Positions 33,726 to 57,782 of a DNA stretch of 64,000 bases are shown here, piece after piece. The stretch is from Chrysogorgia sp. JL179-B06 (taxonomy: Eukaryota > Cnidaria > Anthozoa > Scleralcyonacea > Chrysogorgiidae): NCBI GenBank assembly GCA_035772405.1, contig JAYKKM010000009.1:2148001-2212000 (forward strand), given 5' to 3'. Each line of letters starts with the position of its first letter. The first letter of the stretch is position 1. A program made the position numbers and the translations under genes. The notes beneath the pieces were generated by a model, which saw only the letters and a list, made by a program, of their open reading frames with translations, searched no databases and was not told the DNA's origin.

Positions 33726-33740
33726 CTACACTTGATCTTG
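33726..33740 (-). ncRNA. U2 snRNA fragment (nt about 22-36), 3' flank of a LINE
   Basis: On the minus strand, AAGATCAAGTGTAGT matches U2 positions about 22-36, which include the branch-site recognition GUAGUA region. Similarity fades beyond it. It sits immediately after the 3' end of the half-LINE whose 5' flank is U2 nt 1-22, so it marks the downstream side of the split gene. Confidence 0.75.
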
Positions 33741-36473
33741 TTTTGAAAATCACATACCTGACATTCTCATGATCACCCCACAGTGCAATGGGCCCCTGCG
33801 ACTTGTGTGCTAACAGGAATGACCTCACGGAGGTACCAACATAGATACTAAGACCAGGATAAGGGTTGCGACCACCTCTCCGTACGCCATGACACTGTCT
33901 CGTGATACGGTCGATCGAAAGTGAGGCTCTGTTGGGCCCCACCCACTCCCGACTAATGGGCGTATGGTTCGAATATCCAAGCAATAATGAAAAATGAATC
34001 GTGAATGACCGCGCCAAAATAAATGGCGCGAGGCAACATGATTTACCGTCAGGTTCTGACCGACGACTACCGAGCCGAGAACGATTACAGTAGACTTTTT
34101 AATAAGGCAGGGGACCTGAATCGTCTTCAAGTGAAGAGTCTCCAGAGTCACCCCACCGGAAGTCGAACGAACAAACAAAACGAAACAAACGAGATACGGG
34201 GGCAGATAGAGCTCAAAGAACCCAAACCGAAGTATTGGGTTACCTCAGGCCGCACCAAGTCTCCACCGGAGGGCAGAAGCTGGTAGCTAAGATGTCTCGC
34301 TTTCCAGGCAACCGAGGCCTCTAAGCCTATGCTGCTACGGACGGGTTAAGGACGGCGCTTCTTCCCCTTTTTCTTCTTACTGAGCCCCTTCTTAGGAGGA
34401 GGAAGACCCCTTTTTGGCGCAGGACCCCGCGGTGGAGATGGACCCTTCTTTGAACTAGAACCCAGAGGCGGGAAGTCGTCCTCAACCCCGGATGGAACAG
34501 CTGCACTGTCTTGACGGACCAGTGCAGGGGAGAACGACCGTCGAAACTGCCACAGGAAGAACTGGTGGCAGAGTCCAAGAGATCGAGATCCTCCCGTGGA
34601 TGGGCGAGAGGGATTGGGCGAGGGTCACCAAGGAGGAGTAGGGGAAATTGGGGTATCGAATGAGCACAGAAGGATGCCCAGCTCGTCGTCGTCGGAGTAG
34701 GGAAGTCGCTGTAGAGGAAGGTGAGGTTAGTCGGGTCTGGGTTGGAGGGTGTGTAAACCGTCCAACATTTGCGATCGGTCGAACGCCGCCATTGCTGCAG
34801 CCTCTTCCTCTTCCATGTCCTGGTAAAGGACCAATACGTCGGTGATCTCTGGCTCACAAGAAGACGATATCACAGTTAATACCTGATGCACAGGCCCCGA
34901 GCGAGGGTCAATCCCACCAACCGGGTCTGATGCACAGGCCCCGAGCGAGGGTCAATCCCACCCGAGCGAGGGTCAATCCCACCAACCGGGTCAATCCCAC
35001 CAACAGGGGGAACTGGGTCCGAGGACCCGGAAACCTCAACGGAGGGAAGAGACGGCAATAGAGACAGGGGATGACTCGTAAAGGTGAACGGTCCCGATCG
35101 CCAGGGACCAGGAGGGAACTCTCTACAGGGCCTTCCAAGGCAAGACACAACTTGGGGACCCCGGAGAGCTCAACCTCTGTTGTTCCAGTACCGACCACCA
35201 TGGGCGGACAGGGTTCGGTAGAACCACTACCTCCGCAATGGAAGGAGGAGCAAAGGGAAGGACAAGCTTGTTCTGTGCGCGGCGGTTTGTATTGACACTA
35301 GCAGTCGAGGCACGAGGGGCATGGAGCGGCGGCTACACAAGGGCAGGCGAGGAAGAGGACACCTTGCTGCGGTCAACCCCCCCCCCCCATGATACCATCA
35401 ATGGTAGCCAAACCAGCGAAGGGGTTGGCAGTGTCGAAAGTGTCAACTAAAGGATTGATTGTCGGCGGAGAACGATGGCCAGGGACCACTGTGCAACCGC
35501 TGCTTCGGTCCCTTACGAGCTCAAGGTCTCAGCCGCACGATCGGGGGAACGCACCACTGAGGCCGAGAACAGCGGCAGTGGCTCATCGGGCATAGGCGCC
35601 AGGTTGGCATCTATGGCCGGGACCGAAACAGTCCCCAAAGCTGGTCGATGGCGTGATGGGCAGTTAACAAATTCATGCCCAGGTTTGCCGCAGCCAAAAC
35701 AGGTGCGGGTCTGACCCCTATAAAATATGTTGCAGGGGAAACCCTGCACCCGGAGGCGAGATGGAATAGGCCTCTTGACGTCCATTAATACCTTGCGGAC
35801 GGCGGACCGGAGACCCAAATGGGTCTCATACTGGATTTTGAAGACCTCGCCGAAGTCGCGCAAACAAGTACGGACAAGGCCGTTGGAGATACCGTACGGC
35901 AGCCTAGCTACCGTTACCAATTTCTTAGAGGAAATAGGCGTCAACCCAATGGGATGGCCTCGCAAGGAAAGGCCCGAACTAATAACATCCTCGAGCACAT
36001 TGCCCGAGGAAAATGTTAAACATACCTTGTTCAGCGCGAACAAGTCGACGCAATCGAACGTCTTAAGGTAGTCAGCTGGGAGCTGACGTTTCAGCTCCGC
36101 CGCTAACTCCTTGAAGGTAACGCGTGGCCTGTTTGCGAGAGCCAACGCCGGGAAAACACGAATGGCTTTCCGGTTTGAGAAAGGGGTGGCCATTCTCCAA
36201 ACCACACACGAAAAACAAAAACAACTTACGAACCAAGCCCTTGACAGCAGCCAAGGGCACACACCACCGACCAACGAAACCACTGGACGGCAAACACAGG
36301 CAAGCGCTGACCAAGCGCCCAAACCACAAACGGAAGGAGGACCAAACGTTGATAGCACGAGCAGTGGTGTATGAGCATTAGAGGGTTAGCAACTCCTCAG
36401 CATGGATCCGCCCAATTCACCACAAAGCAAGAACCATCTTCTTGTAGACCACGGTATCACTTACTACCTTCTC
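33741..36473 (-). mobile_element. U2-inserted half-LINE, copy 1 (ORF1 only)
   Basis: Minus-strand element about 2.7 kb long, bounded by U2 snRNA on both sides: nt 1-22 upstream at 36474-36495 and nt 22-36 downstream at 33726-33740. It has a 5' UTR of about 280 nt containing the shared block GGATCCATGCT, a single ORF1, and about 600 nt of 3' UTR. There is no endonuclease or RT. The copy at 49.3-52.2 kb has the same ORF1-plus-UTR structure, so this is a HAL1-like non-autonomous LINE rather than a chance deletion. The 3' UTR block GGAGGTACCAACAT is also found in the larger U2-inserted LINE at 41.07 kb. Confidence 0.85.
34345..36195 (-). pseudogene. Half-LINE ORF1 protein
   Basis: Starts MATPFSNRKAIRVFPALALA (36195). 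The N-terminal region continues FKELAAELKRQLPADYLKTF, then an RRM-like part (VTVARLPYGISNGLVRTCLR, FGEVFKIQYETHLGLRS). A CCHC knuckle, CFGCGKPGHEFVNCP, follows in a frame open to 35513. The rest is Pro/Ser/Gly-rich and frame-shifted. It ends DDFPPLGSSSKKGPSPPRG and a lysine-rich tail (LSKKKKGKKRRP) near 34345, matching copy 2. RRM plus CCHC is the ORF1 plan of Tx1/L1 elements, which package element RNA. Several frameshifts occur between 34.3 and 35.5 kb. Confidence 0.82.
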
Positions 36474-36495
36474 AGCCAAAAGGCCGAGAAGCGAT
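36474..36495 (-). ncRNA. U2 snRNA 5' end (nt 1-22), split by LINE
   Basis: ATCGCTTCTCGGCC followed by TTTTGGCT is the invariant U2 stem-loop I sequence. Right after GGCT the sequence departs into the LINE 5' UTR. About 30-35 nt upstream is TTTATACTTTC, shared by the other units, at the position of a TATA-like or proximal snRNA promoter element. Confidence 0.88.
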
Positions 36496-36600
36496 ACAGA
36501 CCCTTATTTTGAAAGTATAAACGCGAAAAACGGCGTGAAAACACTAGCGGTTCTGCTGACCCCCATCCGCCGAGCGCGGGCGCCAGTTCAGCGTTCGTTA

Positions 36601-36620: not shown

Positions 36621-36626
36621 ACGGTT

Positions 36627-36745
36627 GGTCTACGACACGGAGTATTCCCAGGCGGTCAGCCATTCAAGTACTAACTCCGCCCGACCAGACTTAACTGCGG
36701 TGATCGGACGAGCACCGGTGTTTTCCTGGTGGTGTGGTCGTAGAC
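36627..36745 (-). rRNA. 5S rRNA, copy 1
   Basis: 119 nt from GTCTACGACCA to CGTCGTAGACC-type ends that pair as the terminal stem. It contains TCCGATCACCGCAGT and the C-box region, here TACTTGAATGGCTGACC instead of the consensus TACTTGGATGGGTGACC seen in copy 3. Those two changes in the internal promoter, plus GTGCTCG for GTTCTCG, suggest this copy may be poorly transcribed. It lies 494 nt downstream of U1 and 132 nt upstream of U2. Confidence 0.96.
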
Positions 36746-37238
36746 ATTTGCTACGGCGAATTACGAAGTGTTGTGGGAGATGAATTCGCAAGAGTAGTTT
36801 GCATGCATGCGAATCAATGTTGCGTGGGTGCGACGCGTGCAGCCGTGGAATTGGGGAGACTTTGTGAGGGAAGGATGCATGTTGGACAAACGTCCGCCGT
36901 AAGCGATCGATGTGAGTTGGGTGGCAAGGATGACATGTCGAGGTTCGTGTGTGGATGGGATGGATTCAGGATGTGATGAATGACTGGATGTCAGGCAGGC
37001 GGTGTGTGATATTCGATAGGATCGAGATGATGTTGGTCGGTGTCGTCTGGGTTCGTGATTGCTGCTTTTTCGTCGACTTTATGACTTTGGGATTGTTGTG
37101 GAACGATTTTGTATAAGATGTGAGATGGATTTCATTCGATGGTCGGCTTCTTAATGATCTTGTTCGACAGATCGAATGATGTTTGTGCGGCGGCAGTGTG
37201 AATTTCAAGTGGATTGTTGAGTTTGATTTGTGCACGAA
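36746..37238 (-). repeat. U1-5S spacer, type I
   Basis: A spacer of 493 nt also present at 45214-45700 (type I, near-identical apart from small indels). A related but clearly distinct type II version is at 52496-52988 and, in part, at 47118-47560. All share the 5S-proximal segment CACAACACTTCG on the minus strand. This defines the repeat unit of the RNA-gene array. Confidence 0.85.
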
Positions 37239-37399
37239 GGGGACAAGCGCGAACGCAGGTCCCCACTACAAGAAATTATACGCTCGAGTTGCCCACATTT
37301 GGGGCAATCGCAGGAGTCAACCCAGTCGAAGTGCAATGAGAGGGCCTCATCCTGAGAGGACTCCCTATCTGATCAGAGTGCCTCTCCCGTCAGGTAAGT
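37239..37399 (-). ncRNA. U1 snRNA, full length from nt 3
   Basis: Minus strand from ACTTACCTGACGG, where ACTTACCTG is the 5'-splice-site recognition sequence, through CATTGCACTTCG (stem II) and GCGATTGCCCCAAATGTGGG. A Sm-site region TATAATTTCTTG follows, then the 3' stem GGGGACCTGCGTTCGCGC-TTGTCCCC. The 3' stem pairs well. Nucleotides 1-2 and everything upstream have been replaced by the LINE 3' end, so the normal snRNA promoter is missing from this copy. Length is 161 nt, against about 164 in vertebrates. Confidence 0.95.
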
Positions 37400-37722
37400 T
37401 TTATTTTTAATAGAATATTCGTACATTCCGAGGACGTACCTGCAAAGAATATTCTAAACAGGGGGAGGCTACAAAGCTGCTAACCGTGCTGAGAGCATGA
37501 CTCTCACCCCCGAAGCTGGAAACCTAGAATCCTTTTGATGCGAGAGCCAGCAGTGATCCTAGATAAAGAAAGAAGAAAGAAGGAAAAAGGAACTAAAATA
37601 GTTACTTCACCCAGTACAGACCAATTAAGGAGAGACCAGGGAAGGGGTTAAATTTATCCTACATTAACTATTTTATCCCAACGCCGAGGTGAAGGGTGGT
37701 TTAAGTTAAAAAGGGTAAAAGG
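37400..37722 (-). other. LINE 3' UTR with paired GAATATTC hairpin
   Basis: From the ORF2 stop (GEKLDFSF) the 3' UTR includes GGCTCTCGCATCA, which is nearly the reverse complement of the U1 5' region. A G-rich hairpin segment (GGGGGTGAGAGTCATGCTCT) follows, then two GAATATTC words enclosing about 25 nt, then AAAATAAA. The same order is found at 57783-58110. A young copy could use these structures for RT recognition. Confidence 0.7.
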
Positions 37723-40476
37723 TTAAAAAGAGAAGTCAAGCTTCTCGCCATTAAAAACACCCAAGTACTCCCCAGCAAGCCATTCTTTTTCAAAAATGGC
37801 CCGACGGTGTGGAGAAGAATGTTTTTTCGCGTGCAGACACAGCAGGAATTTAGAACGTGCAATGACTACTTTGAGGCAGTTACTCTTGACTGGTTGAATA
37901 TCGCGGAAGCGGAAGTCGCAGTGGGCAATCCAGATACGATGTTTCACCAGCTGCAACAGCCACATGATAATTTTAGGGATGGAATCCTTCCGTGCACCGT
38001 AAAGCCAAAAAGAAGCTCTTGGACTGTAAAGGGTGTGGCGTTCGGTACCGATAGGGTCAACTAGTAAAGTACCCAGTTGATGAGCAGCTGAGCGAAAGAG
38101 CAATGAAAAAAGAGGTGCTCCAGTGTCTCTTCGTCAGCACTGCAAAAGAACATTATCTCTATACGGCGATAGCCGAATGATCGCAACATCCTAACCGCAG
38201 TGTAAAGAACACCGTGGGCGATCTTCCAATTTAGATCAATTGCCCCACGTTCTAGTGGGAGCATATGTACTTGCTGCAAGGTATCTGGCCAGTAGAGATC
38301 GCCATAGACAGGGCGAAACTTTTCCTCGCAGTGAGGAGGTTTGTGCGATAGAGCTATTGCGATACGGTAGACCTTCTGTGTCGTGAAGGCCTCGATGTTC
38401 AGAGGCACATCGCGCGAAGTATCGATTGCAAGCTCACCGTTATTTGTCCCAGGTTTTCAGTAACTGTTGGTAAAAAGGCGGGAGGCTTTGGAGCGATGTC
38501 CGCTTGAAAGACCGAAGCCTTAGCAGGGCATCAAGCCTTAAATTGAAGCCTTTGCCTAGAAGGTAGCGAAAAAGTAACTTCCATTTCGCCCCAGAATCAG
38601 AGTGAACCCTTTTCAGCCATTGTAGCCGTTGGGCATTCGCTTTCAGTCGAAAGTCAACCACACCAAAACCGCCTGCCGAACATACTGTGGTCACAGTTCG
38701 ACGACCAACCAGATCCTTTTTGCCTGCCCAGAAGAAAGGCCAAATGGCTTTGTCAAGTCTGGATGCCACCCATCCAGGCATGACAAAGACCGTGCATAAA
38801 TGCCATATTTGCGATAATCCAAGTACTGGAACATCTCCGTGGGGGGTATCTGTGCGATGTTTCCAAGCCCCTAGCCACAGTCCTTTGGACTTGCCACGGT
38901 TTAACTTAGCACCGGTGACTTTTTCGTAGTTTTCGTACACTGCAGGAAGCGAGGACTCAGATGTGACAACAACGGTCATGTCGTCTGCGCAGCATGAGCA
39001 TCGCAGTTCTTGGAGCGAGTCCGGCAATCTCAGGCCGGAAATTCCAGGGTCAGTACGAAGGTTGCATGCAAGAACTTCTGCACACAGGACGTAAAGAAGG
39101 GGTGACTGAGGGCAACCCTGTCGTACTCCCCGAGATGGATGGAAGAAGGGTGATATCCAGCCATTTATAATGACAGAGGATTCAACATCCATATAAAAAA
39201 GTTGGATCCATTTCCGAAAGCTGGGACCAAAGCCCATACAAGGTACATGTCAGAAAACCCCAATCGACACGGTCGAAGGCTTTTTCCTGGTCGAGAGAAA
39301 GGAGCGCCACTGGGAGATGGTGTGTTTCAGCCAAATCGATGACGTCCCGCAAAACGCTAAGGTTTTCGCTGATTGTTCTGCCTGGGATTCCACACGTTTG
39401 GTCGGGCGATACCACCGAGGATATGACACCAAGGAGGCGACCGGAAATAGCACGAGTTGCAATGTTGTAGTCCGTGTTAAGAAGGCTAATGGGGCGCCAA
39501 TTTTTGGTCTCAAGACGATCCCTTTTTTATACAGAACAATAATCCGCCCCCGTCTCTGTGAGGTAGATAATGAGCCCGTGGAGTAGGCATAGTTTAAGAC
39601 TTCAACCAGGTCCGAACCGAGAAAATCCCAGAAAGTGGAATAAAACTCAATCGAAAACCCGTCCGAACCTGGCGTCTCACCAGTTGCTATACCGGCAACA
39701 GCTGCAAACACTCCTCCGGAGTGAGAAGGCCCTTGCAACTTGGTTGACCCTCCACAGAAAGTTGCTTCACAAGTTTCGATAGAAGTATATCTTGCACAGC
39801 GGTATCACAGTCCTCGGCAGAGAACATATTTTTATACTACTCTTGCCATATATGCAGAATGGCAAGAGAATCGTGGTGTACAACAGAGGTGGAAGGGTCT
39901 TTGATGGCAGACATGGTCTTTTTTTCTCGGTGTTTCTTTTCCAAGCAAAAGAAATAAGCAGTAGACTTTTCACCCTATTCCGCCCATAGACACCTGGCAC
40001 GCACTTGAGAAACCCGAGCTTCTCTAATCTCGTAGGCGCGCAAGTCTTCCTGAATGGCACAGAGTTCAGCGAAGACAGAAGAGTCCCCAGCGTCAAACAG
40101 AAGCTGTAAGTTTAGCAGCCGACAATTTAACACGACTTTCAAGGCTGATGCTGCAAGAGCTTTCGCCTTGCAAAAACTCCTAGTAACTGCACGCAGATAA
40201 AATTTCCCCAAGTCCCACCAGTCGAGAGGGTTAGAGAAATCTTACTTTTGCGAGCGCCAGAAGGTCCAAAAAGATTTAATTAAAGTACAATACTCCATGT
40301 CCTGGAGCACGGAAGTATTTAATTTCCAATACCCCGGTCCAATACCAACAGATGGGAGTGTGAACGTGACCAGAAGATAACGATACACTCTCTGGAACTA
40401 GGTTCGGTGTTGCACGCTGGTACGACGGCGGGTGGCGCCGGTCCAGAGTGGGATCCAGTACAGCGTTAAAATCCAT
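37723..40476 (-). pseudogene. LINE ORF2 (endonuclease remnant, RT, C-terminus)
   Basis: The endonuclease survives only as DFNAVLDPTLDRRHPPSYQR (about 40450), fused to the post-EN linker. The RT is broken into several frames: ETPGSDGFSIEFYSTFWDFL, SPDQTCGIPGRTISENL, HHLPVALLSLDQEKAFDRVDW, and PSRGVRQGCPQSPLLYVLCA. Motif C has become CADDMTVVV (Tyr to Cys). The C-terminus has WKIAHGVLYTAVRMLRSF and a CCHC cluster (MFFCSADEETLEHLFFHCSF), ending GEKLDFSF. There are at least five frame breaks. SPDQTCG-VPGRTI and the C-terminal knuckle point to the Tx1/L1 lineage. Confidence 0.87.
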
Positions 40477-40874
40477 TCCTGATCAGATGGAATATCGAGA
40501 AGCTGTCGTTTAGGCTCGTCATCATCACTAAAGTGAAGGAGCCGTTTTGTCCCCTTTGGCGCCATCGCCTCTAATGAAACCTCAGTGGAGGAATTGCATG
40601 GCGGAAGATGGCTCGCGATGGTGATCAAAAGGGTGTCATCCTCAACCCTGGAGGTCCGATCAACAGAGGGTACCTCTGAGAACAAGGACAATGAATCATC
40701 ACCACTCCAAGGTGGATGTGGTGGTGGTGGAGGAAGAGGTGGTGGCCTCGTGTCCGACCTGGCAGCAGGAGGAAGGTCAACAACAACCACAGTTGCAGGA
40801 GCAGCGGCAGGATCAGCAGCTGCAATAGAGGCATAAGTCTGCCCAGGACAGCGTTTGACGGTGTGGCCTAATTA

Positions 40875-40966
40875 ACAACCCGTGGCCAGGGCGAAGCAAG
40901 CTTCACAATCCCATGGCCAGGCAATGCCTAGCATACCAGATATTAAGCTGATAAGAACAGATACTA
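40875..40966 (-). ncRNA. U2 snRNA 3' portion, downstream of a LINE
   Basis: Minus strand begins TAGTATCTGTTCTTATCAG then CTTAATATCTGGTATG, which matches U2 from about nt 34 (branch-point recognition loop, stem II). It later has GCTTGCTTCGCCC, similar to U2 stem III (GGCTTGCTCCGTCC). The Sm-site segment and stem IV are missing or degenerate. It follows directly on the 3' end of the LINE at 41.0-44.9 kb, which therefore sits inside U2. Confidence 0.8.
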
Positions 40967-41525
40967 TTTTTGAAAAAATATATTCCTAACAGTCTTAGGA
41001 GACTCAACGGTGCAATGGGCCTCTGAACTGCGTTACAATAGGAATAATTCCCCGGAGGTACCAACATGGGTACTCGATCAGAAAGGGGCGTGCACGACCC
41101 CTTCTCCGTACGCCTGAAGAATCTGATTGTACAACCATTCGGAAGTGGCGCCTCTGTTCAAGGCACCACCAACTCATGGGTAATGCGTAGGTGGATCGAA
41201 GATGTCGGAGATGCGCAGATGAATTTGCGTAAGATCGAAGAAGGAAAAGACAGAGGTAGAAAAAGAACTGGGAAAAGAGTCCAGCATTTAAAACAAAAAT
41301 GAAGAGGGGAAAACCAAGGATGACGACAGAAAAGAGCTGGAAAAGATTCCAGCAGCATTCGTTATTTGGAATCAAGACAATTAGAATAAACAAGCTGCCC
41401 AGTAGGTGTGACAGCTCCAAAAGTCACGAAGGCCAACCACGCCGAGATGAAGTTAATGGAGGAACAATGCCGTTGCTGAACGCTAAGGCAGAATCTGTGG
41501 GCCGCTTTAACACGATGTAGCACCA

Positions 41526-43983
41526 TCACGTGATCCACGGGATCGGAGTCAAAACGAACAGCGTTGCCGTGAAGCCACAGTGATGTTTGATGAGATGTAG
41601 GACTTGAAAACCGGAAGGAACGGCGGAACGGCGAGGAAAGCCGAACAGGACGTCTCCGATGGTGACAATGGGAGCATCACTACGATACGAAGACAGCAGT
41701 GACGAAAACCAAAATAAAACTTGTGAAGCAACGGGACAGGAAAACAATAAGTGTTCAGTAGTTTCTCGTGCAAAACAGAAACAGCGCGGAGATACGTTCA
41801 TGTGAAACCGCAATAGACGATCACAGGTCGGTAAAACCCCATGGGCAATCTTCCATGCAGTATCTAAGGAGGGACGAATGTACTTGCAAAGGTGAATGGA
41901 TGACCAAACAGCTGACCAGGATAAAATAGAGAAATGTTGAAATTTCGCCAAACAGTGCGCGCTGGAGTGGCGTTGGCGGCGATAAGCAATAGACGCTGTT
42001 AAAAGATCGATGGGGACACACGGACGATCAGGATGTGGATGAACCACGATGGATCCGTCAGCGATTCAGGTGCCACCAATCTTCGCCAAGAGGTCAACAC
42101 ACTTGCATAAAAAGGCATCATACATCGGAGTGAGGACGGAGAAAAACTGGAAAAGGCGAAACAACGAGTAACAGGTTCAGCTAGGAAAGCACGGCGCAGA
42201 TAGTAACGGAAGAAATGAATCCATTTACCAGCGGTGGGATGGACAGAACGCCGGATCCACAGTGAATGGAGCGCTTGTACCTTCAAAGCGATGTTAGTTA
42301 TGCCAAAACCACCTTTATGTCGAGGAAGCTGAAGAGTCGCCTGATTTACCAAGTGCATCTTCCCGCTCCAAAAAAAGTTACCAATAAGACGAGTGAGAAG
42401 AGAAAGCACCGACGCTGGAATACAAAAAACCGAAGCCAAAAACCAAAGATGAGACACGACGAGATTGTTGATCACCATCGACTTTCCTGTAAAGGATAGC
42501 GTATGCTTCGACCATAAGGATAGAGAATGCTCAATCCTATAAACAATCGGCTCCCAGAGTTTTTTGGGTGACACACCCGGACCGCGGGTGCACCCAAGGA
42601 TCTTTAGCTCGGTAGAGGACCACTGAATTTGGGCCACAGGATCAACACGATGAGCCCAGCGGCCTAACCACAAACCATGGCATTTTGTTGGATTAAGTTT
42701 GGCGCCACTAGCAAGACCATAAGAATGAAACAATTCAAACAGACGCATGATGGAATAGTCTGTTGCAACGATGACCGTCGTATCATCAGCATACTAGTTG
42801 GTAGATGTAAACCCACGATGATTGGGTCAGCCCGGATGGTACACGCTAATGATTCAGCGACAAGAATGTACAGTAACGGTGAGAGGGCAGCTTTGGCGGA
42901 CACCACGACTAACAGGGAAAAAACCTGATAGAAAACCATTCACTTGGACGGCACTTCGAACATTAGTATACAATAAAGTAATCCAATATCGGAAAGAAGG
43001 TCCAAAAGCCATAACTTGCAAAACACGATGGAGGTAAAACCATTCCACTCGATCGAATGCCTTCTCCTGATCAAAAGAGACGACAGCCGCAGATTTGTCA
43101 CAATCATTGCAATATTGGATAACGTCACGAACCAGGTCAATATTTTCCCCAATAAAGCGACCCGGAACACCACAGGACTTGTCGGGCGAGACGACGGAAC
43201 CAATAACAGCTAGCAGCCGTTTGGCCAAGGCACGGGCAATAATTTTATAGTCAACACAAAGCGATATGGGTCGCCAATTTGAGGCTTCGAAATGATCTCC
43301 TTTTTTATACAGCAACGAGATTACTCCTTGACGCTGTGTAGGAGAGAGGGAACCAGAAGCATAACAAAAGTTCGCCACATTGATAAAATCATCACCGAGC
43401 AAATCCCAAAAGCACAGGTAGAATTCACATGGTAAGCCATCTATTCCAGAAGTGTTACCTGTAATACAGTTTTACCGAGTCATCCCTTCCAAGGCCGCAA
43501 GACACTCCTCCTTGCTAAGCAAGCCCTTGCAAGAGGCCGCTTGTTCCGGAAGGAGCCGACGCTCACACGAGGCAGTAAAAAAAGTCCATCTGGACAGGAT
43601 CAAGAGGTTGGCTGCTGAAAAGAGTTTTGTAATAATCCGCAAATAGGGATGACGTCCGAAATGTTGGTAGGAAGGCTGCCATCAGGGCGATAAACACCGG
43701 ATATAAGTTTTTGTTGTTGCCGCTTTCGCTCCAACGAAAAGAAGAAGCGAGAAGGTTTCTCTCCTTCTTCAGCCCATTGTAAACGGGCGCGAAGGCGAAT
43801 ACGACTTTGCAAATAATCGAAACGCGCTCGATTACTTTGGGCTTCGTTGCGGGAAAACTGTTGTAATAACTTTCCGCCCTCCCACCAAATACCAAGGTTC
43901 TGGAAGGAATGCTTTTTAAGTTGACAATCTTTCCAAAAGGCAGTGACTTTGGAACGAAGAGTAGTTGGAAACGACGACGACAA
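41526..43983 (-). pseudogene. LINE ORF2 (RT and C-terminus), U2-inserted element
   Basis: Order: linker (RARLQWAEEGEKPSRFFFSL), SASGSLSPTQRQGVISLLYK-like fingers, NWRPISLCVDYKIIARALAK, SPDKSCGVPGRFIGENIDLV, motif A (SAAVVSFDQEKAFDRVEWFY), and motif B (SRGVRQSCPL). Motif C (YADDTTVIVATDYSI) lies just after a TAG. The C-terminal domain follows: GAKLNPTKCHGLWLGRWAHR, LVNQATLQLPRHKGGFGITN, and a CCHC-like FCFARETTEHLLFSCPVA. Frame breaks occur at about 43570, 42930 and 42040. The RT is related to, but distinct from, the U1-inserted family. Confidence 0.86.
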
Positions 43984-44116
43984 CGATGTAGCTGTCCGTT
44001 TCCGGGACGTCCGATCTTCTTCGGGTGAAACAGGGATAGAGCCAGCTTTCTTGCGCGGCCGCAGATGGGTTACGACAGTCCAGGAACCATCAGTGGGAGG
44101 TGGAAGATCACGAGTA

Positions 44117-44815
44117 TCAGGTGTGAGATTTCACCAGGTGGAGGGTCATCCAATGAGGAAATCGATGACTAGGGAGAAATGACGAGATCCAATGCTGGAT
44201 CATCAACAATTTCTGATGGGTCACAAGGTGGGACAACTTCAGAGGGTGGAACGAGGTGTCAACAGCGGGGGGCGGAACTCGGGTAGGACAAGAACGATTT
44301 TCATGGCCAGTCTGACCACAAGTAAAACAAGTGCGTATTTGGCCGCGATACACAACGATCGCCGCTTGGCCACGCACAACAATGCGAAAAGGAATAGGAG
44401 TATGTATCTCCATGTTAACTATTAAAATACCAGAATAAATTTCATCAAACTCACGTTCGATGCTTTCTGCTGTACCGTAGGGTGCCAGAGCTTGAGAAAC
44501 GTGTTGCAGGTCCATTTCAAAAGGTAGGCGATGAACGCGAACAACGCGCTTAAAACGGGCTCGTGACAATTCCACCGGAAATTCACGAAAAGACAGGCCA
44601 GTAGACACCAGTCTAACAGCGGCTTCATCATCAGGACAGGTAATCCTAACCCGATGACCAGGGAGAAGTTGCACACAGGAAAACACAGCCGCAATGGCTG
44701 GATACTGCACACGGAAATCCGCTTTGACCATTCGAAAAGTATACTTCGGTCAGTTTGCCACTGCATGAGGAGAAAACTTCCCATAGATAGTGCGACTGGC
44801 GAACTCTTGATTCAT
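44117..44815 (-). pseudogene. LINE ORF1 (RRM-like plus CCHC), U2-inserted element
   Basis: An ATG at 44815 (MNQEFASRTIYGKFSPHAVA) meets a stop after 21 codons. The main frame (44731-44117) has FPVELSRARFKRVVRVHRLP, SQALAPYGTAESIEREFDEI and a CCHC knuckle CFTCGQTGHENRSCP. The order and spacing match the half-LINE ORF1 (LPYG, FGEV, CFGCGKPGHEFVNCP), so the two are relatives. The C-terminus is lost at the endonuclease deletion. Confidence 0.8.
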
Positions 44816-45094
44816 CTTCCAAATTCGTTGTCCAATTCCAGGCTAGGTCCAAAAATCCAATAAATCCAATAAAAGTCGTTGCAAATCTCGTAGATACTGT
44901 GTAGCAGCATTAATAGGTAGCACCTAAAGCATGGATCCGCCACAGTCACAGTTTAGAACTTGATTTAAATCTTGTTTTGAAAGTATAAACGCGAAAAACG
45001 GCGTGAAAACACTAGCGGTTCCGCTGACCTGCATCCGCCGAGCGCGGGCGCCAGTTCAGCGTTCGTTAATTCTACCAAAAGGTCGATGACGGTT

Positions 45095-45213
45095 GGTCAA
45101 CAACACAGAGTATTCCCAGGCTGTCACCCATCCAAGTACTAACTCCGCCCGACCAGACTTAACTGCGGTGATCGGACGAGAACCAGTGTTTTCCTGGTGG
45201 TGTGGTCGTAGAC
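45095..45213 (-). rRNA. 5S rRNA, copy 2
   Basis: 119 nt. The C-box region TACTTGGATGGGTGAC is intact. The 3' strand of the terminal stem is altered (GTTGTTGACC against GTCGTAGACC), so the end helix pairs poorly, and CTGGTTCTCG replaces CCGGTTCTCG. A T4 run follows in CGACCTTTTGGT. Confidence 0.95.
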
Positions 45214-47010: not shown

Positions 47011-47029
47011 GCATGGATCCACCCGCAGC

Positions 47030-47117
47030 AACTTTGTAGATCACTGTAGACTTCTTGAGAACTCTCCAAGGCTCGAGTATCACTTCTGCCAGAAGGTAGA
47101 GAAGCGTGGTCGTAGAC
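47030..47117 (-). ncRNA. Fused 5S (nt 1-12) / U2 5' remnant
   Basis: Minus strand reads GTCTACGACCA, which is 5S nt 1-11, then directly CGCTTCTCTACCTTCTGGC, a diverged U2 nt 3-21. About 107 nt of 5S and the 5S-U2 spacer are therefore deleted. The following GAAGTGATAC matches the leader found after U2 in the two half-LINEs. This is a scar of recombination between array units. Confidence 0.75.
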
Positions 47118-47560
47118 ATTTTCTACGTCGAGATGCGAAGTGTTGTGGGAGACGAATTCGCAGTGGCGCTGAGTTCGTATATGTAAATCAATCGGACGTG
47201 GGAGTGCACTCAGTATTGATGAATTCGTCAGTGAAGATGTGTGAGGGAATGTTGTTTTGTGAATGTGCTGCATAAAGCATGGGATAAGCGAGAGTTGGAT
47301 GGGTGGCAGAAGTGACAGCTCGAAGTTGCAGGCAGGCAGGCAGGCGGTGGTTTTGTTGCGATCGCTGTCGACGAGTTGAACGATGGGATGTGATATTCGA
47401 TAGATCGAGGTGTTGTTGATGATCGGTGTCTGTGATTGTAGCTTTTTTGTCGTCCTCAGTAGTTTTCGGATTCTTGTGAAAGGAGATGGAGAACGGATGG
47501 GATGGATTCTGTTTGACATATGCATTTGTTGCTTGCTCGGTGCTACTGGCTTCCTATTCT
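47118..47560 (-). repeat. U1-5S spacer, type II (partial)
   Basis: Closely matches 52496-52935, including ATGCATATGTCGAACAGAATCC-like and CACGTCCGATTGATTTAC words. Its U1-proximal end is cut at about 47560, where the 3' part of a REL-type LINE begins. Confidence 0.85.
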
Positions 47561-47599
47561 TGTACCTGAGGTTTGGTGTGTGCATTTATGAAATGACGT

Positions 47600-49255: not shown

Positions 49256-49269
49256 CGGCTGCTGGTGTG

Positions 49270-52231
49270 GAAGTGGTATCCAAGCAAGAATGGAAAGTGA
49301 ATCGTGAACGACCGTGCCAAAATAAATGGCACGAGACAACATGATTTAACGTCAGGTTCTGACCGACGACTACCGAGCCGAAAACGACTACGGTAGACTT
49401 TTTCGTGGTGGGGGACCTGAATCGTCTTCAAGAGAAGAGTCTCCAGGAACACCCCACCGGAAGTCAAACAGACAAACAAAACGAGACAAACATAATACCG
49501 GGGCAGATAGAGCTCAAAGAACCCAAACCGAAGTATGGGGTTACCTCAGGCCGCACCAAGCCTCCACCGGAGGGCAGAAGCTGGTTGCTAAGAAGTCGCG
49601 CTTTCCAGGCGACCGAGGCCTCTAAGCCTATGCTGCTACGGACGGTTCACGGGTGGTTTTTCCCATTATTTTTCTTCTTCCCCTTTTTCTTCCCACTGGG
49701 CCCCTTCTTGGGGGGAGGAAGACACCTTTTCGGTGCGGGCGCACGCGGCGGAGATGGACCTTTTGGAGAACAAGAACCCAGGGGCGGGAAATCATCCACG
49801 ACCTCAGGTACCTTGTCCAGGCGGATGGGAGCCGGGGGAGAATGACCCGCAAAATCGCCACAGGAATAACCAGTGGCAGAGGCTAAAAGAGCGAGATCCT
49901 CGGGTGGATGAGGGAGAGGGATGGGGCGAGGGACACCCACGGGTGAGGAAGGGGGAGGAGGGGAAAAGGGGGAGGCCAAATCGCAGACAATGTAGCCCAG
50001 CTGATCCACTTCAGTGTCGGGGGGGAATTCATAATTATAAAGGAAGGTGAGGTTGCATGGGTCAGGATTGGGGGGCTGGAAGGTGTGAAAACCTTCCTGC
50101 AGTTGCCATTTGTCAAAGTAGGCCATTTCAGCCGCCTCCTCATCATCCATATCTTCGTAAAAAACCGAGGTATCATCAATCCCAGGATCATGATACGATG
50201 ACAGCACCGTGACCAGCCGATGTATTGGCCCTGAACGAGGGTCAGCGGAACCCACAACCGACGCAGGCAAAGGAACCAAAGTGGGCGAAGGTAACCCCAA
50301 GACCACCACCTCCCCAGGGGGAACAGGGTCCGAGGACCCGGGATCCACCACAGGGGGAAGAGTCAACGAAAGAGACAGGGGGGCGGACTGCACCGGAGAG
50401 GGATCAGAGAGGGAACTCGCAACGGAGTTCACTTTTGTCAGAGCAACTTTTTTTTTGTTTGGGAACCATGGACAGCTTACCCCCCGGTACATGGGCACTC
50501 CCTCAATCTGCAAAGGAAGGAGGGCGTCCGACTCAGAATCAAGAGGTGGAACAGGGAGGGAACCGTCGACGGAGTCCACCGGGGCAAAGGACAACCCGGG
50601 GACCACGGAGAGATCCACCAACAGGGGATCAGATTGGGGCCGACAGGGAAACAGTAGATGGAACAGGGAGGGAACTCTCGACGGAGTCCACCGGGGCAAA
50701 AGACAACCCGGGGACCACGGAGAGTTCAACCTCCGCAGCCGGGTCAATCCCACCAGCAAGAGGGACTGAACAAGACGGCAGTAAGGACGGGGGGTGGTGC
50801 GGAGGGGAGACCGGACGCGATCTTCAGCGATCAAGAGGGAACTCTCGACAGAGTCCACCACGGCAGACAACACCGTGGAGACCCCGGAGAGCTCAACCGA
50901 ACCCACCACCACGGGGGGACAGAGATGGAAAAGCCCCCACCCAGAGGGGCAGTTTTCCGCGCACGACTGCGCGGAGAGCGGTCACGATGGTCATAGGACT
51001 TATTAGTAAACGAGCCCTCGATCAGAATGACCGAGGCTAAATCATCGGCCCCCAAGGGCTCCACCACCTGACTGCCAAGGTCCAAACACCCAAACGAGTT
51101 GGACGTGACAGCAGGGGCGATGAGGGGTGAAACAGTGATCAAGGGCGATCGATGGCCGGGGACCACAGACCACGCGCCGGCCCAGGGGCGGGAGGCAACA
51201 GGAGATGTCAACCCCTCGTCATCGTCAGATGACAAGACCAGGTCATCCACCAACCGAAGGTCAGCGGTAATAGCGGCCTCAGCCGCGCGGTCCTGATTAC
51301 GTTGTAACTCCTCCGCCAACAACGGCAGTGGAGCATTGGGCATAGGTTCCAGATTGGCTGCAACATCCGGGACCGTACCAGTCCCCGAAACTGGACGATG
51401 GCGAGACGGGCAGTTCACGAACTCATGCCCAGGTCCGCCGCAGCCAAAACAGGTGCGAGTCTGACCCCTACAAAATGTTACAGGGGAAACCCTGCACCCG
51501 GAGGCGAGATGGAATAGGCCTCTTGATGTCCATTAATACCTGGCGCACGGCGGACCGAAGACCCAAATGGGTCTCATACTGAATTTTGAAGACCTCGCCG
51601 TAAGCTGACAATAAAGCCCGGACGAGGTCAGTGGCGACACCATAAGGAAGTCGAGCCACTGTAACCCATTTCTTCGATGAAATAGGCGTGAGAGTCATCG
51701 GGTGACCCCGCAAAGACAAACCCGAACGAATGACATCCTCGAGCACATTGCCCGAGGAGAACGTGAGGCAGACCTTGTTCACGGCGAACAGGTCTACGCA
51801 GTCAAACGTATGCAGATAGTTTGCAGGGAGCTGACGTTTCAGCTCACCTGCCAATTCCTTGAAAGTAACGCGTGGCCTGTTAACCAGAGCCAGCGCCGGA
51901 AAAAACCCAATGGCTTTCCTGTTTGAAAATGGAGTAGCCATTCCCACACACAATAAACAAAAAAACGTACGAACCAAGCCCTTGACACCAGTCAAGGGCA
52001 CACACCACCGACCAACGAAACCACTGGACGGCAAACACAGGCAAGCGCAGGATCACCTCCCACGAACAAAAAGCGCTGACCAAGCGCCCAAACCACAAGT
52101 GGAAGGAGGACCAAGCGTTGATAGAAACGAGGAGTGGTGTATAAGCGTTAGCGGGTTAGCAACTCCTCAGCATGGATCTGCCGAATTCACCACAAACACA
52201 GTCTTCTTCTAGACCACGGTATCACTTACTG
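49270..52231 (-). mobile_element. U2-inserted half-LINE, copy 2 (ORF1 only)
   Basis: Same structure as copy 1 at 33.7-36.5 kb. U2 nt 1-25 lie immediately upstream (52232-52257), followed by a leader with AAGTGATACCGTGGTCTA and GATCCATGCT, one ORF1, then a 3' UTR matching 33960-34330 almost word for word (GACCGACGACTACCGAGCCG and others). The last about 200 nt of 3' UTR and the downstream U2 flank are missing, replaced by a REL LINE fragment at about 49260. No endonuclease or RT. Confidence 0.85.
49649..51950 (-). pseudogene. Half-LINE ORF1 protein, copy 2
   Basis: Starts MATPFSNRKAIGFFPALALV (about 51950) and is open to the end of the RRM-like region (VTVARLPYGVATDLVRALLS). A frameshift at about 51475 falls just before the CCHC knuckle, which reads on as MNCPSRHRPVSGTGTVPDVA. 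A 421-residue frame (50912-49647) carries acidic and Pro-rich sequence (SVFYEDMDDEEAAEMAYFDK) and ends VVDDFPPLGSCSPKGPSPPR with a Lys-rich tail GKKKGKKKNNGKNHP. It is longer than copy 1 by tandem-like expansion of DSVESSL-type segments near 50.6-50.9 kb. About 760 codons in all. Confidence 0.82.
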
Positions 52232-52257
52232 CCTTAGCCAAAAGGCCGAGAAGCGAT
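52232..52257 (-). ncRNA. U2 snRNA 5' end (nt 1-25), split by LINE
   Basis: ATCGCTTCTCGGCC then TTTTGGCTAAGG, identical to U2 through nt 25. It is preceded by the same promoter-like TTTATACTTTCAAAAC as the unit at 36.5 kb and followed by half-LINE leader. Confidence 0.9.
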
Positions 52258-52376: not shown

Positions 52377-52495
52377 GGTCTACGACACGGAGTATTCCCA
52401 GGCGGTCACCCATCCAAGTACTAACTCCGCCCGACGAGACTTGACTGCGGTGATCGGACGAGAACCGGTGTTTTCCTGGTGGTATGGTCGTAGAC
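52377..52495 (-). rRNA. 5S rRNA, copy 3 (best preserved)
   Basis: 119 nt with a fully complementary terminal stem (GTCTACGAC with GTCGTAGAC), an intact C-box TACTTGGATGGGTGACC, and GGTTCTCGTCCGATCACC. TTTT follows 12 nt after the 3' end. Of the three copies this is the likeliest to be transcribed. It lies 494 nt after U1 and 120 nt before U2. Confidence 0.97.
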
Positions 52496-53026: not shown

Positions 53027-53313
53027 TATTATTCATTGTACTATATTCTCGTATTCTCATTGGTTGAGAGCCTACATATAATTATTCGTATTTCGGCGCA
53101 GACAAAATAAATCTCGTATTTGTCATGTGAAAAATTTGGACATGACAAATAAATGTCGTATTTGTCATGTCCATACAGTGCCGCATATTTTTTTCAGCGG
53201 TATCTCGCATGAATTGCAAAAGTGCGGGAAATTTTGTAAAAACTATTTTGTTTTGAGTGTTGACAATGGCTACTGCTCGTTTCGCTTACGAGAATATAGT
53301 ACAATGAATAATA
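53027..53313. mobile_element. Fold-back element with 27-bp perfect TIRs
   Basis: 53027-53053 (from TATTATTCATTG to ATTCTCGTA) is the exact reverse complement of 53287-53313. Inside, 53117-53165 carries further short palindromes around TGTCATGTC and CATGACA. No coding capacity. Confidence 0.85.
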
Positions 53314-53461
53314 AAATAATTATTGAATTCGGCTTACGCAGGATATCAGAATTATTCAGACCTCGGTCAGTATTATCTGCCTCAGCCTCGCTTCGGCAGA
53401 TAACGCTGACCTCGGTCTGAATAATTCTGATATCCTGCTCAGCCTCATCCAATAATTCTTT
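53314..53461. mobile_element. Hairpin MITE (GATATCAGAATTATTCAGACC)
   Basis: Two arms of about 60-70 nt share AGGATATCAGAATTATTCAG in inverted orientation around a short loop at about 53380-53390. It is immediately next to the fold-back at 53027-53313. The pair together fill the interruption in U1, so one may have inserted beside or into the other. Confidence 0.8.
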
Positions 53462-53650
53462 ATTATACGCTCGAGTTGCCCACATTTGGGGTAATCGCAG
53501 GAGTCAACCCAGTCGAAGTGCAATGAGAGGGCCTCATCCTGAGAGGACTCCCTATGTGATCAGAGTGCCGCTCGCGTCAGGTAAGTTTTATTTTGACGCG
53601 AGAGGCAACAATGATCCTAGATAAAGAAAGAAGGAAAAAAGGGAACTAAA

Positions 53651-53930
53651 ATGGTTACTTCACCCAGTACAGACCAATTAAGGAGAGACCGGGGAAGGTG
53701 TTAAATTCATCCTAAATTAACTATTTTATCCCAACGTCAAGGCGAAGGGAGGTTTAAACTAAAAAGGATAAAAGGTTAAAAAGACAGACAATGGTTACTT
53801 CACCCAGTACAGACCAATTAAGGAGAGACCGGGGAAGGTGTTAAATTCATCCTAAATTAACTATTTTATCCCAACGCCAAAGCGAAAGGAGGTTTAAACT
53901 AAAAAGGATAAAAGGTTAAAAAGAGAAGTC
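53651..53930 (-). repeat. 140-bp tandem duplication in LINE 3' UTR
   Basis: 53651-53790 and 53791-53930 are near-identical, from ATGGTTACTTCACCCAGTAC through GGTTAAAAAG. The corresponding 3' UTRs of the other U1-inserted copies have this block once. Confidence 0.88.
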
Positions 53931-55300
53931 AAGCTTCTCCCCATTAAAAACACCCAAGGACCCCCAGCAAGCCATTCTTTTTTCAAAAATGGGCCGTCGG
54001 CGTGGCGAAGAATGTTTTTTTGCGTGCAGACGCAAGAGAAATTGGATACGTGCAATCGCCGCCTTGAGGCACTTTCCTTCATCAGGCGGAATATCTCGGA
54101 AACGAAAATCACATCTAGCAAGCCATATGCGATGTTTTATGATGTGCAACATCCACATTATGATTTTGGGCGTAGAACGTTTCTGCGCCCCAGTGAAACC
54201 AAAGAGAAGCTCTTGCACAGTGAAGGGTGTGGCGTTTGGCACCGAAAGGGTGAGTTGGAAAAACACCCAGTTAATTAGAATCTGGGCAAAGGAACAGGAG
54301 AAAAAGAGGTGTTCAAGTGTTTCTTCGTCCAATCCACAAAAACACATAACATCAATACGTCGGTTGCCAAAAGAGCGGACAAGTCTAAACGCAGTATAGA
54401 GCACCCCATGGGCTATCTTCCAATTAAGGTCGATAGCACCACGTTCAAGGGTAACCGCATGTATCTGCTGCCATGTTTCCGGCCAGTAGAGGGCACCATA
54501 CACAGGGCGGAATTTGTCCACACAGTGTGGGGCTGTAGAGCGTAAGGTTGTACCTATTCTATACACTTTCTGAGTGGAGAAATCTGTAATATCCAGTGGC
54601 ACATCCAGTGAGATGCCAATCACTAGTTTGGCTCCATCAAAGCCACCCTGGAATTGGCGCCAAGCCGACAAGAGCTGCTGATAAAATGCCGGAAGACTTT
54701 GCATTGACACCCTGTTGAATGTCCGTAATGGTCCGTAAAAAATGATGGATAGTAATCACTATCCTGGATGTGTTCTTGGAAACTGATGGGTGCCCACACC
54801 ATATCTATGCGGGAGGAGCACTCGCCAGAATCGTGGTCCCAAGAAAAGGAACGGTCAGCTGGGTGTTGCGTCCGCCAGACTGGGAAAGTGTTCGTAGCCG
54901 ATAAAAGCGACTGCAAAGCCGTAACTCTCAGCAGCCAAATTAGGTGTTGCCCGCTGGTACGGTACGGAATTAAAATCACCACATATAAAGGTGGGAAAAG
55001 CAAGGTCGATAAAATCCAGCAAGGAAGCCAAAAAGTTGTTCCTAGCCTGGTTCCTACTGGGGGCGTAGAGTGAAACAAAGTGTCTCATCATCCAAGATCA
55101 ACTCCGCTTGAACGAAGCGACCTTCTTCGTCACGCCGCACCTGCTCAAGCTGATGACGGGAGTGGACGAGGATGGCGGTGCCTAGCGTGAGAACTAGCAT
55201 GCGTCTCTTGAAGACACACAATATCTGCCTTTACACACTGGAGCCAGTGTATAAAGGTAATTCGTTTTGTTCTATCATTCAGGCCATTAATATTCAGAGT
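53916..55300 (-). pseudogene. LINE ORF2 without RT (endonuclease + C-terminus)
   Basis: The endonuclease has FVSLYAPSRNQARNNFLASL, CGDFNSVPYQRATPNLAAES, FPVWRTQHPADRSFSWDHDS, and the catalytic SRIDMVWAPISFQ with FTDHYGH near its end. It then passes directly to SMQSLPAFYQQLLSAWRQFQ and WKIAHGVLYTAFRLVRSFGN, with a CCHC cluster (CFCGLDEETLEHLFFSCSF). It ends NGEKLDFSF (53916). About 1.5 kb of RT sequence is missing. Confidence 0.87.
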
Positions 55301-55341
55301 AAACAGCTTGAACGTGGAATTATATTGTTGGGGTAAAGAAT

Positions 55342-57222
55342 TTATGAGGAAGGATGCTCCCCTTCCACATCAAGCAAATTGAATTCGTTTTCTACTAAAC
55401 GATCCAGAAAGGCCTCAATCTCTGAACGGCAAACGGCTGAGTCGTTGCTGGTCAGAGAAATATTATCAAGCGGGTCGGGCGTATCAAGCGCCGGGGAACC
55501 AGGAGGTGTATCATCCGTAGCATCCGGGTTCAAGAGCGAACCATTTGGGCTACTACACCCATCACATTCCCAAGGTTCAAGAACTGGAGGGTTGATCCCA
55601 TCTACAACAGAATCAGCAACCCCAGTGTCATTGGTTGCGATTAAGGATCCCTGCGAGTCGACCGGTAACTCTAGATGTAGAGACGGCTCTGATTCAGTGG
55701 AAACAGAAGGATCGACTGGTGGATGCTTTCCAATGGACTCTGAAACAGTATTTAACGGAGTGGGAGGTACAACCCCAGAATCAGAAAGACTTTGCTGCGT
55801 GGGTGTTTCGAGCGCGGCAGAATCAAAATGGCGACATTTCGGTGTTAACAACGGCTGGTGTTATTGTCGCGACCGTAATTGTAGGAGGACCGGATGACTC
55901 AGTGACTGTAGATGGATTCGCCGGAGTTGTATGGTTTAAAGAGTCCTCCTCAGCGATCGTTGTATGGGGCAAGACGCTCTCGAAATCAGAGAATGACTCA
56001 CCATCCGGACAGCGGCGTCGCCAGGCCTGGTAGAGTGGGGTGGACAAAAGCACGAGGAAGTCTAGGGGGACTGGGGGTATGTATAACATACATTGTCACA
56101 AGTCACTATTCATTACCCCCCCCCAACAATTTTCTCCACGGATTTGAACAAACTAAAAAATCGGTCCTGATGATAATTGGGGTGGACAAGTCCACCCCAG
56201 TCCACCCCGAGGTGACGCCACTGATCCTGATTGATTGGGACAGATATGGTCGTATCCAGGATAGAGTCCTCGTCCGAGGACTCGTTCAGCAAAGGACGTT
56301 TGGATTGATTCTCCTCACTGGCAGTATCCAAGAGGCGCTTTGTACCCTTGGGTGCCATCTCTTCAAGGGAGCTCTCACCCGCAGAATTGCAAGGTGGAAG
56401 AGCCAGAGAATTGGTTTCCACAGTAACCACTATTGTTTCTCCTACAATAGTGGAAGTCCGATCTGGATGATCGATACTTCGTGTATGAGGAGGTGGTGCT
56501 GGCAGGGGAGGCAGTGGACTAAGAGGCGATAGACTGGGACGCACGTCGTCTAAAGCAGCCACACGAGCCAGGGTAGTGGATACCACATCATTCCACATTC
56601 TGGAAGAAGTACTAGCTATAGTACGTGGAGGAGCAGCTGCCTTACGTGGAGGAGCAACTGCCTTGGCGGCGTAGGATCGCCGCGGACAACGTTGCACCAC
56701 AGCCGTAACAGGATGTGGGCTGGTCTTTATAATTAATATGGCAGCGAAAGCCCGCAATCCGTATAAATGTCGGAATGTGGCGAATGATGTGCATGGTTAT
56801 CATCCGTGTGCCCGACTGGATATGGGGGAAGCCCTTCACTGGTAGGTGCTTGACCGTAGCCACGCGACCATACTGCTCTAGGGCTATAGAAAAATCCTTA
56901 TTAGGGAACTGCAATGGCGCCTGTTCCACAAAAACAGGCGTAAGATTTTCGTAGGCCGGAGCCTGGGTAAGGTGGACACCCCGAAAATCAATACCTTGGA
57001 TATCAAAGGAGCGGCGCAACTCAATATCCTTGAATTGCACACGGAGTTGCAGTTGAGGAAGGATCTGTATGCCCGCTAGTTTTTCAGGGCCAAGTAGCTT
57101 CAAAATTCGGTACGCACTACTTTTAATGGATCCGTACCAACGATTTGCTTAGGAAGAGTCACGACCGAGGTCGTGCTATTCCACGCACTGTAATCTAGGT
57201 CGCTGTATGACTGTTGCGCCAT
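55342..57222 (-). pseudogene. LINE ORF1, U1-inserted copy 2
   Basis: The ATG at 57222 starts MAQQSYSDLDYSAWNSTTSV and reaches VVTLPKQIVGTDPLKVVRTE before a frameshift. The next frame carries LGPEKLAGIQILPQLQLRVQ, FRGVHLTQAPAYENLTPVFV, the RRM-like LEQYGRVATVKHLPVKGFPH, and INYKDQPTSCYGCGATLSAA, where the CCHC is broken after CYGCG. The second half has LEEMAPKGTKRLLDTASEEN and a Ser/Asp-rich tail to 55342. A 214-bp MITE interrupts it. Confidence 0.83.
56010..56223. mobile_element. hAT-like MITE inside LINE ORF1
   Basis: Ends CAGCGGCGTCGCC and the reverse complement of CAGTGGCGTCACC, followed inside by inverted GTGGGGTGGAC words. Flanks ATCCGGA and ATCCTGA suggest a 7-bp target duplication with one mismatch. 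The CAG-start ends resemble those of the hAT-type element at 9758-10292. A C run lies near 56117-56126. Confidence 0.72.
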
Positions 57223-57764
57223 AGTAACGAATTAGATTCAATTAGTTTAGTATGTATAATTCCATTTACGATAATGTAATGGAATTTATTTAAGTATAGT
57301 GTAATTAATTATATAATATTAGTATATAATGTGTGGTATCAAATATTTAATATAATACAATTATATTAAATATGCAAGAAAGAAAGCGTCTGCACGCGAG
57401 GAAAAAAATGCCGGCGACAAAAGTCCCCCACACACAAACAGGTACTACGCGCCTGTACGCAGGGGTAAACCCAGCAGGAGGGAGGACGCCTGCTCGTCAG
57501 GGACAAACAACCCCCAAACCACCTAGCAGGAAAGGCGCCTGCTCGCCGAGAACCCGAAGGTTCGCAGGTTAAGCCTGCCTAACTAACTTAACTAACTACA
57601 GATAAAGATGGAAAGAAGGACGCAGCAAGGGCGCCCGAAAACGAAGTTGTTCTATCTACAGAGATAGCTCGTTGTGCACAGTATTTAGGTTATGGCCTTA
57701 GCAAGGTCCAAGCATGGATCCCTCAATACTGCGAGACAGATACTTATGAGACACTCGAGCGTAA

Positions 57765-57782
57765 CTCTCGCGTCAGGTAAGT
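57765..57782 (-). ncRNA. U1 snRNA 5' fragment between two LINEs
   Basis: ACTTACCTGACGCGAGAG, the first 18 nt of the U1 match, lies between the 3' end of one U1-inserted LINE (AAAATAAA) and the 5' UTR of the next. It is the upstream half of a target duplication whose other half begins the U1 gene at 53586. Confidence 0.9.

Follow-up and report, generated by a model that had tools for sequence, protein, structure and literature searches.

In the excerpted part of a 2015 paper (PMC4640811), the only mobile elements reported for small nuclear RNA (snRNA) genes are Keno and Utopia, both U2-specific, together with Dada-U1 and Dada-U6. Keno is an APE-type LINE of the Tx1 clade. Utopia is an RLE-type element with the same 3' flank as Keno, at U2 nt 39, and makes a 20-bp duplication in reptiles. 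Dada-U1 is a DDE transposon with duplications of 6–8 bp. A LINE specific to 5S genes, Mutsu, has been described from zebrafish, and the site-specific LINE R2 carries a structured RNA at its 5' end, an HDV-like ribozyme in which the 28S target sequence can supply one strand of P1 (PMC3774820). Tandem units that join the RNA genes in question are also on record: a unit with U1, U2 and 5S occurs in the coral Acropora (PMC8167085), and the same source cites Solea senegalensis, in which 5S is linked with U1, U2 and also U5.

The U1-5S-U2 array and its intact unit

The window, i.e. the whole stretch of 64,000 nucleotides that was analysed, comes from Chrysogorgia sp. JL179-B06 (contig C9:2148001-2212000; genome of 781 Mb in 522 contigs). 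A sequence-only reading had proposed that it holds a [U1-5S-U2]n array turned into a LINE reservoir, a proposal that failing covariance models for the three RNAs would have refuted; the Rfam models for U1, U2 and 5S all scored above cut-off. All gathering-level matches lie on the minus strand, as do all features given below for the window, and follow the one order U1-5S-U2. The order claimed at 37.4–36.5 kb was borne out by a full-length U1 gene (37238..37401, 142.7 bits), whose promoter side is replaced in the sequence by the 3' end of a LINE, a 5S gene (36627..36745, 102.1 bits) and U2 nt 1–22 (36474..36495), after which a LINE 5' end follows. The same order at 53.6–52.2 kb is represented by a 5' part of U1 (53460..53588, 94.8 bits), which has a LINE 3' end before it and is then interrupted by an insert of about 430 bp with inverted repeats (53030..53461; one of them 28 nt), a 3' part of U1 that stays below the Rfam threshold (53085-52988, 37.3 bits), a 5S gene (52377..52495, 108.3 bits) and again U2 nt 1–22 (52236..52257) followed by a LINE 5' end. 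Both U2 starts are exact matches to a 22-nt pattern, which was found twice in the window and never in 100 shuffles.

At 45.8–45.1 kb, where U1 and 5S had been read, Rfam recognised a U1 gene that has lost part of its 5' half and has an A-rich tail before it (45700..45838, 80.4 bits) and a 5S gene (45095..45213, 96.1 bits). The stretch at 47.55–47.03 kb is a spacer with a 5S/U2 fusion, as had been stated, the start of 5S being joined to a degenerate U2 start at 47088..47120. Of two U2 pieces claimed further downstream, the one at 40.9 kb held (U2 middle and 3' part behind a LINE 3' end, 40858..40983; 47.4 bits, cut-off 46); the one at 33.7 kb amounts to about 15 nt recognised by eye behind a LINE 3' end (33725..33739), which received no Rfam score and was missed by a longer U2 pattern allowing up to three mismatches. 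U1 nt 3–20 also lies between two tandem-inserted LINEs (57765..57782; sequence and pattern search). U1-5S spacers measure 492, 486 and 492 nt and 5S-U2 spacers 131 and 119 nt; the spacers fall into two subtypes, with 95–97% identity within and 60–62% between them. A LINE 3' end stands before each of the three U1 5' ends that pattern search located, and after each of the two U2 5' ends comes the 5' end of an element; no U1 copy has its own promoter side and no U2 copy is whole, while Rfam found three full-length 5S genes. The window is a decayed, insert-ridden part of a [U1-5S-U2] array.

A search of the assembly for uninterrupted units, which the earlier reading had suggested, recovered an intact U1-5S-U2 unit of 1,494 bp in the same genome, on contig C164. 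Forty-two of 10,520 U1 candidates were scored, and the counts are therefore lower bounds: C164 carries 32 of the 42, spaced by about 1,494 bp and with 152 bits each, C181 nine and C382 one. The first 10 kb of C164 contain seven U1, seven 5S and six U2 matches as regular units with all three genes, U2 scores being low because the 5' part of U2 is given as N. The 5S start at position 685 of the unit implies a U1-5S spacer of about 520 nt, slightly above that of the window. Like units on C181 are interrupted by LINEs at fixed sites. An assembly chimera is a very improbable source of the window's array: C164 and C181 both repeat its order, and its U1 junctions are found again on C181.

As in Acropora and Solea senegalensis, 5S is found here with U1 and U2 in tandem units; this array differs in its order, U1-5S-U2, and in the unit length of 1,494 bp, and the excerpt of PMC8167085 mentions no site-specific inserts. 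The earlier view that all three genes in one unit, with a LINE in nearly every snRNA copy, appear unusual needs correction as to the linkage, which is already published from coral and fish; it is known in kind and not new.

Retrotransposon families at exact positions in U1 and U2

The unit was mapped over 200 kb of C181, where many unit pieces are 99–100% identical to it and those at 1067–1080k, with some near 497–536k, have diverged. In C181:950-1080k, U1 starts uninterrupted in 33 of 38 pieces, the other five starting at nt 3 behind inserts of 5.9–6.5 kb; U2 is at native or near-native spacing (60–76) in 21 of 38 and has inserts in 17; and 5S is spanned whole in all 38. The stretch C181:490-560k has five pieces that run across 5S and one that begins within the gene, at about nt 16, next to a truncated LINE. 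Accumulation of LINEs with no preference for a target, as would be seen in any repeat region poor in genes, is a conceivable alternative, and nested and truncated elements of other types do occur in the window; however, the junctions repeat to the base on C181 and 5S is left whole throughout C181:950-1080k, which makes this explanation scarcely credible. The inserts belong to several target-specific non-LTR retrotransposon families at exact positions.

The following sites were observed: (i) in U1, an APE-type LINE has a 5' flank ending at nt 20 or 18 and a 3' flank from nt 3, with a duplication of 16–18 bp; nine unit pieces on C181 begin at nt 3, and among the 11 U1-type 5' ends there that carry the RNA motif described below, eight join nt 20 (two of these between tandem LINEs), two join nt 18 and one has no U1 leader. 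Window copies of this type are a LINE with APE and RT domains whose 5' end lies beyond the window (57783..64000), one that is internally deleted (53587..57764) and one that is 5'-truncated (37400..40857); (ii) at U2 nt 23–25, an APE-type LINE with ORF2 and an ORF1 of 458 aa is accompanied by ORF1-only elements (gaps of 3,204 and 3,358 bp) and by SINE-like elements without the motif (8 places, gaps of 532–776 bp), the latter also beginning some compound inserts; (iii) at U2 nt 39–58, two R2-like elements (C181 inserts 1011029 and 967647) occur with a 20-bp duplication, together with short derivatives (gaps of about 1.83–1.85 kb), among which 1059949 lacks an exact motif core; and (iv) a poly-A-tailed APE LINE (1000474) joins U2 near nt 35–36. 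Elements of the U2 site in the window comprise a LINE with ORF1 and RT (40984..44971), two related elements with ORF1 in which no RT was found (33740..36473 and 49277..52235), and a U2-type piece in which the 5' motif is fused to remains of ORF1 and APE (46080..47087).

Mutsu is comparable in that the LINE target is an RNA gene of this unit; no 5S-specific insertion was found here. A 5S-targeting LINE at 47.1 kb was considered and rejected: because its 5' part is U2-like, we take the place for a fusion of 5S and U2 with an element of U2 type. Cuts near nt 14–16, beside rearranged elements, were seen in two 5S genes, one at 47.1 kb of the window and one at C181:536426.

The U1 LINE at C181:952105-958399 appears to be near-intact, having a single frame of 1,699 aa with APE and RT above cut-off and CCHC just below, and its last residues differ from those of its relatives as if frameshifted. 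The best solved relative of the U1 LINE is LINE-1 ORF2 (9e-78). In the U2 nt-25 LINE, RVT_1 is above cut-off and APE was recognised by tblastn likeness to the U1 LINE alone. An APE endonuclease with RT, as in Keno, was hence found in the U1 LINE (APE and RVT_1) and in the U2 nt-25 LINE, and like Keno the latter is an APE-type LINE within U2 genes. Their 3' flanks do not start at U2 nt 39 as in Keno, but at nt 3 of U1 for the one and at nt 23–24 of U2 for the other; the poly-A-tailed APE LINE likewise departs from Keno, with its 3' flank near U2 nt 35–36.

The R2-like ORF spans 1,416 aa from stop to stop, and the best solved relative of the nt-39 element is R2Tg (3e-58); Pfam reports only RT, a CCHC-type endonuclease motif being visible by eye. 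It resembles Utopia in its R2-like protein, in a 3' flank from U2 nt 39 (inserts 1011029 and 967647) and in a duplication as long as that of reptile Utopia, and differs in carrying the 5' motif common to the APE LINEs, which the excerpted description of Utopia does not mention. Where they can be aligned, the APE-type and R2-like RTs are about 25% identical. Dada-U1 shares the choice of U1 genes as target with the U1 element, which is a LINE and not a DDE transposon. No later U1-specific LINE was found in the open-licence PMC literature searched; the U1-site element may thus be the first U1-specific LINE, and, as far as searched, this LINE and the cross-clade 5' motif look new.

As a description, "LINE reservoir" understates the situation, since the families are target-specific and many C181 copies are uninterrupted. 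With these amendments, the interpretation of the sequence-only reading is supported.

An RNA motif common to the 5' ends

The U1 APE, U2 nt-25 APE and R2-like elements have in common a 5' RNA motif of about 45 nt, composed of a helix, a loop that faces UAA and reads GAUCCAUGCU (or GAUCCAUGCG), and a hairpin with a GCU loop cap. In the window it was located by pattern and covariance model at 36364..36423, 44896..44952, 52134..52193, 57679..57731 and, as the weakest copy (21.8 bits), 46978..47032. The pattern GATCCATGCT-N4-9-TGCTA has five occurrences in the window and none in 100 shuffles. With relaxed criteria, 24 candidates were obtained on C181, of which three on the other strand were set aside and 21 on the array strand were kept, some with one or two mismatches. 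By eye, U1 or U2 sequence lies directly upstream in 21 of the 26 copies from window and C181; in the rest the leader is masked (two), degenerate or lost (two, in the window) or absent (one).

Fourteen distinct copies were picked by hand for alignment, the 12 omitted being further copies from families already represented, along with the fused one of the window. Of 70 cells in the helix beside the loop 97.1% are paired, a fraction favoured by the drawing of the structure from the same 14 sequences. Double changes number 26, compared with 7.5 in shuffles, and the covariation score is 1.053, whereas shuffles give 0.311 and slid controls never exceed 0.231; the second pair alone occurs as CG (4), GC (4), UA (4) and AU (2). 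Two of the five helix measures fell within the shuffles, namely the number of pairs showing a double change (168/500) and that of additional pair types (111/500). The hairpin was supported in ten copies of equal length, with 98.3% of cells paired and a score for the whole of 0.727 versus 0.238. The covariance model built from these ten found 25 places in 287 kb at E ≤0.0045, ten of them the training copies, and nothing further up to E 1, one known copy being cut by the end of a stretch; the poly-A-tailed APE LINE in U2 (1000474) gave no match.

The first 500 nt of a U2 APE LINE and of two R2-like elements have their best local alignment on the motif, with scores of 54 and 52 against a largest value of 34 in 100 shuffles. 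The likeness of the U1 LINE 5' end to other families, with scores of 20–28, stays within the shuffle range beyond a 10-mer, its own relative being the exception. A search of three motif copies against Rfam with E up to 10 returned nothing above cut-off; the best sub-threshold match, with 20.1 bits at a cut-off of 46, was to U2 itself and covered the leader. Folding energies proved unexceptional and a weak support for the motif: for six copies, between 10 and 131 of 200 shuffles did as well. An outer stem from the window copies alone was weak as well, shuffles being as good in 37–249 of 2000 for four copies and in 1803 of 2000 for the fifth; C181 copies gave it a stronger test. The motif pattern, 15 bases in length, also occurs in viral and prokaryote contigs, with at least 120 stretches in each, which we take as chance.

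Proposed origin and possible role of the motif

Upstream of fresh inserts, the promoter side of the host gene and the initial 18–58 nt of the snRNA gene are left in place, and the side directly upstream of inserts in U1 is that of the native promoter. We infer that the snRNA promoter just upstream of an insert would start the element RNA, which would open with an snRNA leader and present the motif early, some 50–150 nt in. The motif may then act in a host-facing step, such as escape from snRNA-type 3' processing, export or translation. This role is suggested because the proteins of two clades use one RNA motif; judged from sequence, it is the reading that we prefer, though tentatively. Points against this explanation are one motif copy without an snRNA leader, the poly-A-tailed APE LINE that lives in U2 without the motif, the two helix measures that fell within the shuffles, the unexceptional folding energies and the limited 5' likeness of the U1 LINE to other families. 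The motif would have spread by the exchange of 5' ends between elements lying side by side in the array.

The main rival reads the motif as a self-cleaving ribozyme which, by itself or together with the snRNA leader, would release the RNA of the element. R2 provides the precedent (PMC3774820): in that site-specific LINE, too, the RNA is structured at its 5' end, and the target sequence contributes to the structure. Complements to the leader exist in several elements and are strongest in the R2-like ones, with 12 bp in R2-like f (0/3000 shuffles as long with Watson-Crick pairs only, 49/3000 with GU) and 15 bp with GU in R2-like a (23/3000), followed by 11 bp with GU in the U2 nt-25 family (123 and 220/3000) and 8 bp in U1 h and g (43 and 131/3000). 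However, the pairing is not significant in U1 b, c and c2 and the window U1 copy with GU (1154–1340/3000) or in U2 e (2414 and 2718/3000), and none of the five window copies passes by duplex energy. Pairing of leader and 5'-UTR was accordingly rejected as a general feature, given this failure in the window and a longest helix that is significant in some families only. A crude descriptor of the HDV double pseudoknot (P1, P2, P3, L3, J4/2) matched two of five window 5' ends, both closely related and weak in P2, and 10 of 200 control windows. If the RNA were cleaved within the motif, its first 30–85 nt would be lost, yet the insertions retain them. The motif also differs from the R2 ribozyme in fold and in conserved letters. 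We consider a ribozyme improbable.

Binding of the elements' own proteins, as a packaging or reverse-transcription signal, would suit the position of the motif, since R2 RNA also has structured protein-binding parts at its 5' end (PMC12222951). One and the same motif occurs, however, with both APE-type and R2-like proteins, despite their distant RTs, and own-protein binding seems unlikely.

Taken as a whole, tandem units, site-specific LINE families, a shared 5' RNA motif, snRNA-started RNA and 5'-end exchange probably account for the locus. More tentatively, and from sequence comparison, the array may be a niche in which APE-type and R2-like elements swapped a structured 5' RNA that makes snRNA-promoter transcripts usable; with its leader, this would be a new 5'-end RNA device, present also on the U1 LINE, possibly the first with that specificity.

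Genes for 28S, 5S and U2 are known targets of site-specific retrotransposons, and a U1 LINE would extend this list by one more gene, again with a precise site of its own. That two distant clades in one array share a covarying motif suggests a host step, at the front end of the RNA, which is important for both; the motif offers a 45-nt object with which to test that step. As intact units, fresh inserts and decayed stretches are all present in one genome, the tolerance of an essential RNA-gene array for its parasites can be traced.

Units and interrupted genes

On C181, another contig of the same genome, a diverged subtype of the U1-5S-U2 unit occupies positions 1067000-1080000, where its pieces are 80-98% identical and large inserts are absent; near-identical, insert-rich units adjoin it. 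The APE-type LINE inserted in U1 is covered, across both ORF1 and ORF2, by a single frame of 1,699 aa (L264:2753-7852, in the stretch of DNA bearing this LINE). In the window, a U1 gene is interrupted at 53030-53461 by a 430-bp insert carrying inverted repeats. The breaks in two 5S genes, at window position 47106 and at C181:536426, almost coincide (nt 14-16), and the surroundings are rearranged; this near-coincidence may reflect a weak target site or chance.

Further transposons in the window

The R2-like LINE type is represented by two more copies, at 26000-29800 and at 47560-49270, which share approximately 50% protein identity; the latter is flanked by a U2-site element on one side and spacer on the other. 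Open frames at 29827-32687 are candidates for two proteins: on the + strand a transposase of the Harbinger type, and on the - strand the Myb-like partner that accompanies it. A DIRS-like element at 12592-17473 was observed to possess both repeats and frames; its RVT_1 match was above the cut-off and its phage-integrase match only below it.

SINE-like elements in U2

SINE-like elements occur at nt 23-25 of U2 genes on C181, as exemplified by L252:4480-5125 and L252:8085-8620 in the stretch containing these genes. Their 3' ends are similar to that of the LINE inserted at the same site, a resemblance that would be expected if the SINE-like elements borrow the LINE machinery.
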